Origin: Verrucomicrobiia bacterium
Lineage (GTDB): Bacteria; Verrucomicrobiota; Verrucomicrobiia; Limisphaerales; JAEYXS01
DNA length: 64,000 nt
Assembly (NCBI GenBank): GCA_036405135.1
Contig: DASWYF010000040.1
Coordinates: forward strand, 62,001 to 126,000
Reading direction: 5' to 3'
Shown here: positions 4,570 to 13,478 of the stretch, piece after piece
How the letters are laid out: each line of letters opens with the position of its first letter
Numbering within the stretch: position 1 is the first letter of the stretch
Program-made: the position numbers and the translations under genes
The notes under the pieces: generated by a model
Database searches by the model: none
Seen by the model: the letters and a program-made list of their open reading frames with translations, nothing else
What the model was told of the DNA's origin: nothing

Positions 4570-7500
4570 ATGCTCCGTAAATTCGTTGCCTTAACTGCTG
4601 TTTTGGCGTCGCTAGCTCCCGCCGCGACGTCCGTTCGTGCTGCCGAGAATCAAGCCGCCCGCTCTGGTCCTAAAGTCATGCCCGCCTCCGAGGAAGGTGT
4701 GAACGCCATGAAAGGCTTCCAGCTTCCCACGGGTTACAAGGTGGAGCTCGCCGCTGCTGAACCACTCTTCGCGAACCCCGTCTCTTTCACCATCGACGAA
4801 CAGGGCCGCTTCTACGTAGCCGAGACGTTCCGCTTCAGCGCGGGCGTGTTGGATATCCGCGGCATCATGCACTGGCTGGATGAAGAGCTCGCCTCCAAGT
4901 CCGTCGCCGAACGCATCGCCTACACCCGCCGTCATGCCGGTCAAAAAGGTGAGAAACCGTTGAACTGGTTCACTGATAACGAAGACCGCATCTCCATCGT
5001 CTGGGACAGCAATGGCGATGGCGTCGCCGAAACCTCCTCCGTGCTTTCCACCTTTAGCGAAGAGGCCGATGGCATCGGCTCCGGCGTTCTCACGCGCAAA
5101 GGCAAGGTCTGGTACACGAACATCCCTCACCTCTGGCAGCTCGAAGACAAGAACGGCGACGGCAAGGCCGACGTGAAGAAAAGCCTGAGCTACGGCTACG
5201 GCGTGCGCTTCGGCTTCCTCGGCCATGACAGCCACGGCTTGCGCATCGGACCCGATGGCCGCCTCTACTACTCCATCGGCGATCGTGGCGCACACATTGA
5301 GTTGCCCAATGGCAAAGTCGTGGAAAATCTCGAAGAAGGCGCTATCTACCGCTGCGAACAGGATGGTTCCAATCTGGAGATCTTCTATCGCGGCCTGCGC
5401 AATCCGCAGGAACTCGTGTTCGATGACCTCGGCAATCTCTGGACCTGCGATAACAACTCTGATGCTGGCGATCCCGCCCGTGTGGTGTATGCCGCTCAAG
5501 ATGGTGACAGCGGCTGGCGCATCGGCTGGCAGTTCATCGAGCGCCCCATGCGCCGTGGTTCTTGGCTCGGCGAACGCCTTTGCTACGAATACTTCAAGGA
5601 CCGCGCCGCTTACACCGTCCCTCCCGTGTCCAGCAAGGTCGGTAACGGCCCCAGCGGTCTGACGTACGATCCCGGCATCGCCCTCACGGAAGAATGGCGC
5701 GGACGTTTCTTCCTCGCGAACTTCAGCGGTAACCCGAACAGCGGTATCTACAGCTTCGCCGTGGAACCCCTCGGTTCCGGCTTTGCTCTCAAGGATAACA
5801 AGAAATTCTGGTGGAACTTCCTGCCGACAGACATCGAGTTCGGCTATGACGGCGCCATCTACGCCACCGACTGGGTGAACGGCTGGAGCGGCTTGGGCAA
5901 AGGCCGCATCTACCGCCTCTCGCATCCGGATGAGCGCAGCAAACCAGCCGCCGCCGAAGTGAAACAAATCTTCGCAGAAGGTTTCGATAAACGTTCCACC
6001 ACGGAGCTCGTGAAGCTCATCGCCCACGCCGATCAGCGCGTCCGTCAGGAAGCGCAGTTCGCTCTCGTGGACAAAAAGGCTGAGAAAGAACTCAGCAACG
6101 TGGCCGCCTCTGGCCCGACGCTTCACTCCCGCCTGCACGCCATCTGGGGCCTCGGCCAGCTCGCCCGCCAAGGCCGCTCTGTGGACCTCAACGCCTTGTT
6201 GAAAGACAAAGAAACCGAAGTCCGCGCGCAGACGCTCAAGATCATCGCGGACGCCAAGCTCTCGAAGTATCAGAAGCAAGTGCTCGCCGGTCTTGCGGAT
6301 AATCAAGTCCGCGTGCGCTACTTCGCCGCTCTCGCTGCTGGCAAACTCGGTGATAAATCCAGCGTCCCCGATCTGCTCGCCGTCATCAAAGATAACGACG
6401 ACAAAGACCCGTGGCTGCGCAATGCATGCGTCGTCGGTCTGACCGGTTGCGCCAAGGCCGCTGACCTGGCCAAACTCTCGAACGATGCCTCCGCCGCCGT
6501 GCGCCTCGCAGCCACCGTCGCTTTGCGTCGTCTGGAATCTCCCGAACTCAGCCGCTTCCTCGCGGATAAAGATCCTCGCGTCGTAGCCGAAGCCGCACGC
6601 GCCATCAATGACATCCCGGTCGTCGCCGCCCTGCCCGCCCTCGCCAGCCTCACGGCTCGTGTGAGCGAATTCTCCAGCCTGCCAAGCGGCAGCAATACCG
6701 AACCGACTCCCCGTGATGCGATCCTGCGCCGCGTTATCAACGCGAACTTCCGCCTCGGCACCACGACCAATGCCGACGCCGTCAGCGCCCTCGCCGATGA
6801 TGAACGCGTGCCGGAAAACATCCGTGTGGAAGCCCTCACGCAACTGGGTGAATGGTCTGCTCCGAGCGGTCGCGATCAAGTCAGCGGCCTCTGGCGCCCT
6901 TTGCAAAAGCGCGCTGCCCCGGATGCTACTCATCTCGAACCGATGGCTGTGAAACTCATCACCAGCCAATCCTCAGCCACCACCAAGATCGCCTTGCTGG
7001 AAACCGCTCAGAAGCTTAACTGGAAGACCTTGAGCGATGCCGCCTTCACCTTGGTTAGCGATGAGAAGGCCGATAAAAAGCTTCGCGTAGCCGCTCTGCA
7101 ATACATGGGTGCCAGCAAGTCACCCAAGCTCACTGACGCCGTGCACGTCGCCAGCCAGGACAAGGCTGAAGAACTCCGAACCGCCGCCACCAAGCTCGCT
7201 GCCTCCGTCGGCGGTGGTACCGGTGCCGTAGCTACTCTGGCGAATGTATTGAAGAGCGGTGGCACCCGTGAGAAACAGGCTGCATTCACCACGGTTGCGA
7301 CGGTTGCAGGCAAAGATGCTGCCACCCTGCTCAATCAGTGGCTGGATGAACTCATCGCCGGCAAAGTGGCCAAGGAACTGCAACTGGATCTCATCGAAGC
7401 TGCCAGCAAACGTCCTGAAACGGATGTGAAGGAACGCTTGGCGAAGTTCGACAAAGCCCGTCAAGATGACGGTGGCTTGGGTGCTTACGCTGAATGCTTC

Positions 7501-8133: not shown

Positions 8134-9732
8134 TTACGACGTCTTGATCGGACGCCCCGTCACAAAGTACGTGGCCACCTTGTCCTTGCCCACCGTAAGC
8201 GTTTTGCCTTCCTTAAAAACGAACTTGTCCGCCAGGCTGTCATGGATCACCTGGTTCACCTGAATGCCTGTGGCCGGAGCCGTATTTTCCAACTCACGTG
8301 CGATATTGACCGTCTGGCCCCAGAGGTAATAGAGGAACTTCTTCCGGCCCACGATACCAGCCATCACCGGCCCAGTGCAGATACCTACACGCACCTTGAA
8401 ATCCACACCATTGCGGCTGTTGAAGCGGTTCGTGATGCGCAGCATCTCCATCGCCACTTCCACCGCCGCTTGCGCATGATCTTCGCGAGGTGAAGGCACA
8501 CCCGCCACCGCCATGTAGGAATCACCCACCGTGCGGATGCGCTCCATCGCATGCATATCCACCAGCCAGTCGAACCCGGAGAAAATATCGTTCAGCAACT
8601 GCACCATGCGCTCCGGCGGATACTGCTTGGACAGATGCTCAAAATCCACGATGTCCGCAAAGAGCACCGTCGCCTCATCAAACGTATCCGCGATGGTCGT
8701 CTCGCCGTTCTTCAAGCGCTCGGCGATCGCTTTCGGCAGGATGCAATGGAGCAAACGATCTGATTTCTCACGTTCTACCCGCAACTCCGCTGTGTAAGCC
8801 TGTTCACGATCCCGCAGACGTTTCTTTTCCAGTGAAGCTGAGATACGCGCTTTGAGCAGAACGGGATTGAACGGCTTCGGCAAATAATCCTCCGCGCCCG
8901 CCTCGATGCAATTCACCGCCGCATCGATCTCATCCATCGCGGAGATCATGATCACCGGCAGATGACGCAGCTCCATGTCTGACTTGAGCTGCTGAAGCGT
9001 CTCAAACCCGTTCATCACCGGCATGAGCACATCAAGCAAGATGAGATCGAATTCGCTGATCTTGAGCATTGTCAAGCCATCCAGACCGTTTTCCGCCTCG
9101 GTGACCTTATACCCCAAACGCTCCAAACGTCTCCCGAGCATGTTGCGGTTCATCTCATTATCATCGATCAGCAGAATACGTCCATCGGCTGCTGCCACAT
9201 CGGCTTTGCGAATGAATGTGGTCCCGCTTCCCAGAGTGGCTGCTGCTGAAGCACCGGGGAGGGATTTCCGGGTGGTGGTATTGATTTGCGCAGGGAAACT
9301 CTGGCTGTTGAACATCGTCAACAGGTTGTGCGCCGCCGCAGTGATCTTTTGCAGATCCGAGGTGATGCGTTGGTTGCCAGAATCTTCCATCATCTCCTGG
9401 CTCAACTCCGCATAGCCGATGATGAGGTTCAACGGCGTGCGCATCTCCAGCCGCATGCTGTCGAGATCCACCCTGCCCGTCTCGATCTTCCACGGGGCCA
9501 ATCCTTCATTGATCAACGCCAGCAACTGTCCGCCCGCCGTATGGATCTTCTGCAAATCCGGCAGCAGATGTTCCTGTCCCAGATCGGAAAGATCCTCCTG
9601 CAACATCTCACAGTAGCCGATGATCTGGTTCAACGGCGTGCGCAAACTATGCCGCACACCAGACAGCTCATCAGTCTCACCCATCTGATGATCAACCTCA
9701 AGCTGACCGGGTATCGATGCTGGATCGGACAT
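8134..9732 (-). CDS. Receiver-class III nucleotide cyclase with two kinase-type DHp modules
   Basis: This 532-residue soluble protein starts with two histidine-kinase dimerisation (HisKA/DHp) units: RHSLRTPLNQIIGY (His28) and RLEMRTPLNLIIGY, in which the phospho-histidine position is Leu95. No ATPase domain follows. A complete receiver domain (about 185-300) has Asp234 as the phosphorylation site and Lys286 in its KPF motif. A class III adenylate/guanylate cyclase domain (about 350-500) ends the protein. The metal-binding aspartates are at 360 and 404, exactly the usual 44 residues apart. By my alignment the purine-selecting positions are Arg400 and Tyr469, and the transition-state arginine position is Glu480, so substrate and activity are uncertain. 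It is the last gene of a leftward operon with the receiver at 9758 and the hybrid kinase at 10141. Confidence 0.88.
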   Translation of the reverse strand: MSDPASIPGQLEVDHQMGETDELSGVRHSLRTPLNQIIGYCEMLQEDLSDLGQEHLLPDLQKIHTAGGQLLALINEGLAPWKIETGRVDLDSMRLEMRTPLNLIIGYAELSQEMMEDSGNQRITSDLQKITAAAHNLLTMFNSQSFPAQINTTTRKSLPGASAAATLGSGTTFIRKADVAAADGRILLIDDNEMNRNMLGRRLERLGYKVTEAENGLDGLTMLKISEFDLILLDVLMPVMNGFETLQQLKSDMELRHLPVIMISAMDEIDAAVNCIEAGAEDYLPKPFNPVLLKARISASLEKKRLRDREQAYTAELRVEREKSDRLLHCILPKAIAERLKNGETTIADTFDEATVLFADIVDFEHLSKQYPPERMVQLLNDIFSGFDWLVDMHAMERIRTVGDSYMAVAGVPSPREDHAQAAVEVAMEMLRITNRFNSRNGVDFKVRVGICTGPVMAGIVGRKKFLYYLWGQTVNIARELENTAPATGIQVNQVIHDSLADKFVFKEGKTLTVGKDKVATYFVTGRPIKTS

Positions 9733-9757: not shown

Positions 9758-10135
9758 TCAGGCAGCTCCGTGCTTCTTCAGCAGTGCCTCCACCTTTTCC
9801 AGTAGGCGAGGCAGCTCGATCGGCTTCGTATCGTAATCATCGCAACCGGCTTCCAAAGCCTTCTCACGATCACCGGCCATGGCGTGCGCGGTCAATGCGA
9901 TGACAGGTATCTTGCTCGTCACCGGAAACGATTTGATAAGTTTCGTGGCTTCCCAGCCGTCCAGCACGGGCAGGCTCATGTCCATGAGGATCAGGTCGGG
10001 ATTCTCGCTCTGCGCCTTGGCTACGCCTTCGTTGCCATCCACGGCCATCACCACCGCATAGCCGCGACGTTCCAGGCGGCGGGATAACATGTCCCGGTTC
10101 ATCTCGTTGTCTTCCACCAGCAATATCTTCGCCAT
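9758..10135 (-). CDS. Single-domain response regulator (CheY-like receiver)
   Basis: The 125 residues form one receiver domain and nothing else. ILLVEDNEMNRDML supplies the acidic pocket, LILMDMSLP the phosphorylated aspartate (residue 52), ALTAHA the conserved threonine and DTKPIE the lysine. Its first 40 residues closely resemble the receiver inside the neighbouring cyclase (both read DNEMNR.ML.RRLER.GY), which suggests duplication within the operon. It begins 5 bases after the hybrid kinase stop and ends 25 bases before the cyclase start. It is probably a phosphate shuttle between them, or an output acting by protein contact. Confidence 0.93.
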   Translation of the reverse strand: MAKILLVEDNEMNRDMLSRRLERRGYAVVMAVDGNEGVAKAQSENPDLILMDMSLPVLDGWEATKLIKSFPVTSKIPVIALTAHAMAGDREKALEAGCDDYDTKPIELPRLLEKVEALLKKHGAA

Positions 10136-10140
10136 AAAAT

Positions 10141-12555
10141 TTATTCGTTCGCGGTCGCCTTTTTCATATCTTTCTTAGCCCCATTGGCGCTGGATTCCAC
10201 AAAGGAACTCACCAACTGCCGCACATCCGACATCAATTGCTCCTGTTGATAACTGCCTTTGCGCATGATCTTGGTCACGTTGCCATTGAGCCGTTGATAA
10301 TCCTTAGCCGTAAGTTCCATCGCCGTGATCACCACCACCGGGATGTCCTTCCATTCCGTCACTTCACGCAGTTGCGCTACAAACTCAAACCCATCCATCT
10401 CCGGCATCATCAAATCCAACAGGATGAGGGATGGACGCTTTTCATTCACCCGCGCCAAGGCTTGCTGGCCATTCCCCGCTTCCATCACCGTCCATCCGTC
10501 GCGTTCCAGCAGCACGCGCATGAATTGCCGCACGCCTTCCTCGTCCTCCACTATCAACACCAGAGAATCATCCGAGGTTCGCCGGTATTTCCGCAGCAGG
10601 TTCGAAAGTTTGTCCCGGTCGATCGGCTTCGTCAGGTAATCCGCCGCCCCCAAGGCAAAGCCCATGTGCTTGTCCTCGATCATAGAAAGCATCACTACCG
10701 GTATTTCGCTTAGAATCGGGTCATTCTTCAGGGACGAAAGCACATTCCAACCGTCCATCTCCGGCATCATCACATCCAGTATGATGACATCTGGTTTGAT
10801 CTCCCGGGCTTTCTTCAAACCTTCACGTCCTGACTGCACGCCATTTACTTTGAAGCCCTGGCGCTGCAACAGGCGCTTCAACAGATCGTGAATCGTCGGA
10901 TCATCATCGATCACCAGCACACTGCCGACAGAAGGCTCCACACTCGTCAGAGGCGCTGTTTTGGCTGGTTCTATTGTCGACACCTCCGGCGCAGTGGGTG
11001 AAGCCACCTTTGAAGGTATCTTGAAGGTGAACGTAGAGCCTTTCTTGAACACGCTCGCCACCGTCGTATCGCCGCCCATCATCCGTGAAAAATGTCGTGT
11101 GATGGCCAGTCCCAATCCCGTTCCGCCAAACTTCTTCGTCGTCCCCGCATCAGCTTGCACAAATGCCTGGAACAAACGGTCCATTTGTTCCTGCGTCATG
11201 CCGATGCCTGTATCAATGACTTTGAAATGGATCCATTCCCGGCCATCGATCTCCACCACTCTCGCAGCCTCGAGCTTGATCAATCCATTGTTCGTGAATT
11301 TGGAAGCATTGCTCAAGAGATTGAACAATCCTTGCCGGACTTTCGTCATGTCCGCATACATCGTCCCGATGTCATCCGGGAATACCATCTCCAGGCGGTT
11401 GGAATTCTTGGCGACCAACGGCGTGATGGTATTGGAGACCTCGCGGACAAGCTGGCCGATGCCAAACGTCTCCAAATAAAGATCCATTTTGCCGGACTCG
11501 ATCTTGGAGATGTCCAGCACATCATTGATCAATCCCAGCAGATGTTTGCCGGCGGAGTGGACCTTGTTGAGGTCCTCCACAAACGATTGCTCACCCAAAT
11601 CCTCGGCCTCCTCCTTCAGCATTTCACTGTATCCGATGATCGCATTCAACGGCGTGCGAAGCTCATGGCTCATGTTCGCCAGAAACGCGCTCTTGGTCTG
11701 GTTGGCCACCTCGGCTGCTTCCTTCGCGTCCTGAGCTTCACGGGTTGCCTGTCGCAAGGCGGATGTGCGCTCTTCCACGCGCTGCTCCAGCTGCGCATTT
11801 GCATCCTCCGTGCGTTTGTTCGCAGCCTGCAATGCTGCGTCCCGCTGCTGGATATCCGCCAGCATGTGATTGAACGCCTCTATCATCTGGCCGATCTCAT
11901 CTTCGCTGATCTTGCGTGCGCGCACCGAGTAATCATTATTTTCCGAGACAGATTTGGCCGTCCGGGCCAGCTCCAGAATCGGATCAGTGATGATGCGCTG
12001 CAACCGGAAGGAGAACAACAAGGCCATCAGGCATGCGATCAAGGAGGAGATGATGACAATCTGAGCATACTGCACCACACGGTCGGCGAACTTCTCTGCG
12101 AGATCCGCCTTGAGGTAAACCGTGCCCAATTGCTTGCCGTTATGCAGCACCGGCTCAAACAGAGTAAGCGTCCTGTCATCAAACCGGACACGGACCTTGG
12201 ATGGCTCCCGGGGAATGAATTCACCACCTTGCAAAGGCAGATATTTTGCCACCAGATCATTGGTCTCACCATAAAGACAGGCGGCCATCACACTCGGCTC
12301 ATTCTTCAAATAGTCGAATGGATCACGCACCTTCTGGTCGGCACTTTTTTGCAACAGCACGAGCGTGCTGTTCACCTTGGCATGCTCCGCCAGCGATGTA
12401 AGTTTTTGCACCTGGGCCTGACGGAAGGTATATTCCTCATAACCGACGATGGCACCACATGCGATAAGCAAAGTGATGACACTGGTCAGCATGTTGACCG
12501 CCGTCACCTTCCATTGAAATGGCAAACGCCTGAACATACCTATACGGTGCCGCAC
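10141..12555 (-). CDS. Membrane hybrid histidine kinase (sensor-HAMP-HisKA-ATPase-REC-REC)
   Basis: This 804-residue sensor kinase begins with a transmembrane helix (about 16-38), an extracytoplasmic sensor of about 125 residues resembling the CHASE8 type, and a second helix (about 166-187). HAMP (about 188-240), a coiled coil (240-285) and HisKA follow, with the phospho-histidine in [12 protein letters not shown] near 299. The ATPase domain shows [16 protein letters not shown] and GGTGLGLAI. Two receivers complete it, with aspartates in VIILDVMMP and LILLDLMMP. The second receiver's C-terminal switch reads MRKGSY rather than a usual KP motif. The encoded start is GTG 12555; ATG 12537, six codons downstream, is equally possible. 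It is the first gene of the operon reading into the receiver and the cyclase. Confidence 0.92.
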
Positions 12556-12917: not shown

Positions 12918-13478
12918 ATGCGATTGGAGGTTAAAGGTTTTACCAGGATGCACCCGCGCATTGAAATAGTTTCCGGTGATTTGACGAAGCTGGCAATTGA
13001 CGCAATCGTCAATGCGGCGAACAGTTCTTTGCTGGGTGGTGGTGGGGTAGATGGAGCCATTCATCGCGGTGCGGGACCGGAACTTTATGAGGAGTGCAAA
13101 AAACTGAAAGGCTGTCCGACAGGGGAAGCCAAAATCACTTTAGGTTACAATCTGCCGGCAAAGCATGTCATCCACACGGTGGGTCCAATCTGGAATGGCG
13201 GCGAACGCAATGAGGATGAAAAACTCGCCCGCTGTTACCGCAACAGCCTGAATGTCGCATTGCAAAACGGACTTAAGACAATCGCCTTCCCCGCGATCAG
13301 TACCGGTGCCTACGGCTTCCCCATGGACCGCGCCACCAAGATCGCCATTCGCGAGGCCATCGCATTTCTCGCCGTCAATCCAGACTTTGAGAAAGTTATC
13401 TTCTGCTGCTTCGGCCCCGCCGCGTTCCGTCTATATCAGGACACTTTGACAGAATTGACCGACATCCCACACCTCTGA
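12918..13478 (+). CDS. Macro domain protein, likely O-acetyl-ADP-ribose deacetylase
   Basis: A single macro domain fills this 186-residue protein. Macro domains of this subgroup (YmdB, MacroD) hydrolyse O-acetyl-ADP-ribose and remove mono-ADP-ribose from proteins. Signatures are [19 protein letters not shown] (residues about 17-35), [14 protein letters not shown] and the phosphate-binding loop ISTGAYGFP near 130. The catalytic aspartate is expected in VDGAIH. Two starts are possible: ATG 12918, used here, and ATG 12948 ten codons later. The later one would begin directly at the domain but has its AGG touching the start codon. It reads away from the kinase operon; no ADP-ribosyltransferase is nearby. 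Confidence 0.9.

Follow-up and report, generated by a model that had tools for sequence, protein, structure and literature searches.

A proposed phosphorelay protein from Verrucomicrobiia with a single-histidine tandem DHp and a rewritten but conserved class III cyclase domain

The cyanobacterial CyaC is a class IIIa adenylate cyclase with a receiver (REC) input. In mammals, adenylyl cyclase C1 and soluble guanylyl cyclase (sGC) alpha keep the metal aspartates and miss the partner-side catalytic residues, and the tongue lysine contacting the γ-phosphate is K1065 in tmAC. Pyrimidine cyclases, including the cytidylate cyclase EaPycC, have been described in the Pycsar systems (PMC11224242). As for phosphotransfer, monomeric HPt proteins are four-helix bundles and Spo0B assembles such a bundle from two subunits; in Spo0B and ChpT, kinase-type hairpins serve as a phosphotransfer four-helix bundle without a working ATPase (PMC3433190). 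In open-access papers we found no account of the module described below or of bacterial pseudocyclases.

We analyzed a stretch of 64,000 nucleotides from a Verrucomicrobiia bacterium, hereafter the window. The DHp-DHp-REC-cyclase protein P0001 (8134..9732, 532 aa) is encoded there by one open reading frame on the minus strand (9732-8134), the plus strand across 8134-9732 being broken by stops; the first-pass annotation had given no strand. Pfam recognizes two HisKA stretches, a Response_reg domain (residues 186-297) and a Guanylate_cyc domain (residues 349-525). All parts lie on the minus strand. The first DHp hairpin (residues 21-86, 9475..9672; Pfam HisKA and blastp) carries the H-box H28-S-L-R-T32, and the second (residues 87-143, 9304..9474; second Pfam HisKA stretch and blastp) has Leu95 in place of the histidine. 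The receiver follows (residues 184-300, 8833..9183; Pfam, residues and AF2 model) and possesses the whole response-regulator set (DD, D, T/S, K) as D190, D191, D234, S264 and K286. A coil and cyclase transducer region (residues 301-348, 8689..8832), assigned from a model helix and a weak HNOBA end match, leads to the class III cyclase domain (residues 349-525, 8158..8688; Pfam Guanylate_cyc 1.6e-48 and alignments). No Pfam match to HATPase was found in P0001, so that the ATPase domain of HisKA kinases is missing. The reading made in the first-pass annotation, two H-boxes with His28 in the first, Leu95 in the second and no ATPase, thus agrees with both the residue check and Pfam.

Upstream of P0001, on the same strand and with gaps of about 25 and 5 bp, lie a lone receiver (125 aa, 9758..10135; Pfam) and a hybrid histidine kinase (804 aa, 10141..12555) with a sensor-HAMP-HisKA-HATPase-REC-REC layout (Pfam, synteny). 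P0001 occupies the third position in a conserved module, ordered hybrid kinase, lone receiver, DHp-DHp-REC-output, that is found across many Verrucomicrobiota, on one Thermoanaerobaculia contig (partial) and on large Sinorhizobium plasmids. Besides a class IIIa cyclase, the output can be a SpoIIE phosphatase (L063, L065) or a different Guanylate_cyc-type domain (L061). The lone receiver is the best-conserved gene of the module, 61-95% identical in relatives. P0001 shares with the REC-input class IIIa adenylate cyclases, represented by the canonical module members, the REC-coil-cyclase order, a homologous fold and the metal aspartates; it differs from this class by the replacement of Lys/Asp, Ser/Arg and the tongue Lys, and by an ATPase-less tandem DHp in front. 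In the congener G001, the kinase orthologue is found as two open reading frames overlapping by a few bases (L041, 5487-7202 and 7199-7888), either an assembly frameshift or a true split. Some contigs bearing the module (L061, L062, L064) are titled Akkermansia muciniphila, a label that looks doubtful given their large signalling repertoire.

The receiver residue set is complete in 33 of 33 family members, and every member keeps at least one DHp histidine: the first only in 21, both in 9 and the second only in 3. The first-pass annotation had singled out Leu95. The residue is indeed as it was read, but we dropped it as a special feature, since 21 of the 33 members have no second histidine. An IMG/VR contig (L119, 1-1581) encodes a full DHp-DHp-REC-cyclase protein in which the histidine of the first box is lost and that of the second kept, with a canonical cyclase; the contig may be bacterial sequence flanking a prophage.

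By blastp, the first hairpin of P0001 shares 53% identity with the DHp of the neighbouring kinase (10141) and 44% with the second hairpin. The AlphaFold model of residues 1-180, computed with nine sequences as input, consists of two hairpins whose helices have a pLDDT of about 90. The modelled tandem DHp superposes on designed single-chain four-helix bundles, with 2.1 A over 115 residues for 1yo7 (Z 14.3, a value within the range for which a warning is given, as helical bundles match easily) and 1.9 A over 112 residues for 8a3k; the model speaks for the packing of the hairpins, not for their function. The tandem DHp is thus predicted to form a single-chain four-helix bundle, like a phosphotransfer domain made from two kinase hairpins. 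The matches listed for the DHp structure alone were generic helical bundles, with neither a histidine kinase DHp nor an HPt chain among them, so that the family identity of the hairpins rests on sequence. In the full-length AlphaFold model, receiver and DHp were good, whereas the cyclase was unreliable (pLDDT mostly under 60) because the input was limited to nine sequences. The AF2 receiver model matches receivers with a Z of about 20, and receivers filled the Foldseek and VIA matches of the full-length model.

In HisKA proteins, the acidic residue that follows the histidine is needed for autokinase but not for phosphatase activity, which requires a threonine (PMC3510030). P0001 has Ser29 at the acidic position, a loss that had escaped the first-pass annotation, and keeps the phosphatase Thr32. 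It is plausible that His28 accepts phosphate, and from Ser29 and Thr32 we infer that this residue more probably serves in phosphotransfer or phosphatase reactions with receivers than as a target of ATP-driven phosphorylation. Compared with Spo0B and ChpT, whose bundle is built from two subunits, P0001 has both hairpins in one chain, with one histidine, fused to a receiver and an output domain.

Homology to the class III fold family extends over the whole cyclase domain (PF00211, 165 bits, residues 349-525). We mapped the catalytic positions with HMMER, aligning the domain to 7yz9, a class III cyclase of known structure from a mycobacterium, and to an HMM built from canonical relatives. We take 7yz9 to be the M. 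intracellulare cyclase; the alignment tool itself names it 'Adenylate cyclase'. Both metal aspartates, D360 and D404, are present by direct residue check and in the alignments. The canonical Lys, Asp and Arg positions fall on residues 400, 469 and 480, in gap-free surroundings. The base-selecting pair is accordingly Arg400/Tyr469, neither Lys/Asp nor Glu/Cys, with Y469 two residues before W471, and the transition-state arginine position is occupied by Glu480, directly preceded by Arg479. The profile alignment therefore bears out the residue assignments proposed from the sequence alone, and it reveals further losses. Altogether the changes are T365E, K400R, D469Y, S479R and R480E plus the tongue Lys, replaced or deleted. 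Glu365 stands for the phosphate-loop Thr, Arg479 for the Ser that touches the ribose in guanylate cyclase structures, and the tongue Lys is the residue contacting the γ-phosphate (Lys612 in CaGC; PMC7384201). D360, D404, the phosphate-binding R448 and, of the transition-state Asn and Arg, N476 are kept. Six canonical catalytic positions are thus altered or lost in P0001, while 19 family members have the full set.

These substitutions are more than chance, because across the seven genomes checked the Arg at position 480 is present in 32 of the 33 remaining class III domains and because R400, Y469 and E480 are identical in both congeners. The cyclase domains of P0001 and its two orthologues are 87-92% identical, with a dN/dS of about 0.04-0.05, a level of purifying selection equal to that on the receiver, although such ratios are rough since dS is saturated. 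In a paralogue pair (G000:C49 and G001:C74), dN reaches 0.29 in the cyclase against 0.06 in the receiver. Among the only three congeners available, the pocket shell is invariant at 37 of 38 positions compared with 113 of 139 elsewhere (p=0.011), in a test with a hand-chosen shell and 27 variable positions; R400, Y469, R479 and E480 are all invariant. Canonical pairs share this bias, whereas dead pairs do not. With a hand-chosen shell and so small a sample, this is suggestive evidence that the altered pocket of this genus is constrained to the degree seen in active cyclases and still does something. The pocket of the C49/C74 paralogue drifts. The same genome encodes another degenerate class III cyclase domain (L038, 1243-3417), in which a metal Asp is changed to Asn, the Asn to His and the Arg to Ser.

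Twenty-eight family members bear a cyclase: 19 have every canonical residue, 8 are altered and 1 is frameshifted. The frameshift, in genome G055 (L049, 3510-5081), lies right after the WG motif and reflects either a sequencing error or an inactivation. All eight altered members are relatives of P0001, and some have also lost a metal aspartate (D360N, D360R, D360E). Judging from these residues, the latter would not be expected to work as homodimers. Two genomes with dead orthologues, G014 and G038, encode no further class IIIa cyclase that could serve as a partner. With metal aspartates gone and no such partner in these two, residues and gene content argue that loss of catalysis is established in the clade. 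The altered genes form a single clade in a tree of all columns (support 76/64). When the cyclase columns are removed, the tree is poorly resolved and two changes are needed; one or two origins are therefore possible. Across the family, judged by its residues, phospho-chemistry is retained and cyclase chemistry is not.

We propose, with somewhat more confidence than doubt, that P0001 is a phosphorelay output regulator whose cyclase domain, non-cyclising yet constrained, is a pseudocyclase that senses a ligand or regulates a partner. The proposal builds on the domains, residue changes, synteny, conservation and clade-wide loss reported above, and on the predicted bundle fold. The kinase would charge its own receivers and the lone receiver. 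The hairpins of P0001 would pack within one chain into a four-helix bundle with a single acceptor histidine, a Spo0B/HPt-type phosphotransfer (or phosphatase) element derived from a duplication of the kinase's own DHp. This bundle would swap phosphate among the receivers of the module and with D234, in a direction that we infer, as we do the absence of catalysis, the pocket ligand and the partner. Phosphorylation of D234 would then be relayed by the coil to the dimer of cyclase folds. For the majority of relatives, canonical residues suggest that the receiver controls cAMP synthesis in this way. In this genus, the dimer by itself would no longer cyclise a nucleotide, and its conserved, metal-capable but rewritten pocket would make it a sensor or a partner regulator. 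The cyclase end of P0001 thus probably senses or regulates instead of making cyclic AMP. The first-pass annotation had offered a sensor or a cyclase making an unusual nucleotide; the sensor is the better half, given the three further pocket losses and the metal aspartates lost in sister proteins, and an unusual product has the lower probability, since Glu stands in place of the transition-state Arg. Against a pseudocyclase, D360, D404, R448 and N476 are kept in a pocket under selection, so that some catalysis may persist, and R479 is only one residue from the lost Arg.

A parallel can be drawn with C1 and sGC alpha. P0001 could be a half of this kind, giving the metal aspartates while a canonical class IIIa partner would give Lys, Asp, Asn and Arg, with one working site per heterodimer. 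This is rather unlikely, in our opinion, although the residues retained are exactly those of the metal side (D360, D404, R448), most of those opposite having gone, the conservation of the pocket fits a half-site, and all three congeners encode a canonical class IIIa cyclase able in principle to complete a site (G000:C35, G001:C4, G002:C111). Indeed, the metal side is itself altered at its phosphate loop (T365E), the partner side still has N476, and G014 and G038 offer their dead orthologues no class IIIa partner. The partner is moreover only a candidate, unlinked to the P0001 operon, and a search for one among the class III domains of the seven genomes yielded complete canonical domains and no metal-less C2-like half. 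We give similarly low credence to an active homodimeric cyclase with a changed substrate or chemistry, in which R479 would stand for the lost Arg and R400/Y469 would select another base. Two points speak for it, the invariance of R400, Y469, R479 and E480 in three congeners under strong selection and the likeness to EaPycC, which has an Arg (R142) at the canonical Lys position, four residues before the second metal Asp, as in P0001 (PMC11224242). However, the passage of PMC7384201 that cites Yan 1997 describes the Asn and Arg as essential in the mammalian cyclase, and P0001 has further lost S479, T365 and the tongue Lys. Weak Pycsar profile scores also speak against it. Membership in Pycsar was rejected: the best PycC model scores 41 bits against 165 for the generic PF00211, and the neighbours of P0001 (kinase, receiver, cytochrome-c/DUF7133 and macro-domain genes) include no adjoining Pycsar effector. 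The lost transition-state Arg is another difference from the Pycsar cyclases.

One would also wonder whether the cyclase domain is merely decaying after redundancy, with the phospho-domains alone of importance. The C49/C74 paralogue, for which we accept this explanation, looks so, and relatives show scattered and differing losses. For P0001 itself we rejected decay as improbable, since its altered residues are fixed across orthologues and dN/dS is about 0.05. Least credible of all, and in our view barely tenable, is an ordinary adenylate cyclase that tolerates the changes: a good overall fold score and the metal aspartates agree with it, but Lys, Asp, Ser, Arg and tongue Lys have all changed, and the Arg is kept almost everywhere else in the seven genomes. 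A bolder reading, less likely than not, is a class III domain re-cut within a phosphorelay into a specific nucleotide-binding or half-site regulator, either as the bacterial counterpart of C1 and sGC alpha, or as a phosphorylation-gated nucleotide sensor, in both cases driven by a bundle arisen through DHp duplication.

The finding is real and well conserved, and its interest is greater as an enzyme-to-pseudoenzyme series than as a lone odd protein. At one and the same place in the operon, members of a single bacterial order have active, half-lost or fully dead cyclases, together with an unaltered phosphorelay part, a natural series for studying how a signalling enzyme becomes a sensor, a scaffold or a half-enzyme. 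The tandem DHp with one histidine also illustrates how a dimeric kinase hairpin could be turned, by simple means, into a phosphotransfer domain that is monomeric.

Two further observations concern the surroundings and distribution of these genes. A macro-domain gene (window 12918-13478, plus strand) adjoins the kinase, and another, 67% identical (L039, 954-1544), adjoins the degenerate cyclase paralogue of this genome, which suggests a duplicated neighbourhood; in G001, a further macro gene lies near the paralogue cyclase as two open reading frames (L055, about 6321-6844). Finally, IMG/VR viral contigs of 13-126 kb (L128-L141) carry a gene for a small protein resembling class III cyclases; the ones translated are about 235 aa long and, on visual inspection, retain the canonical Asp, Lys and Asn/Arg motifs.
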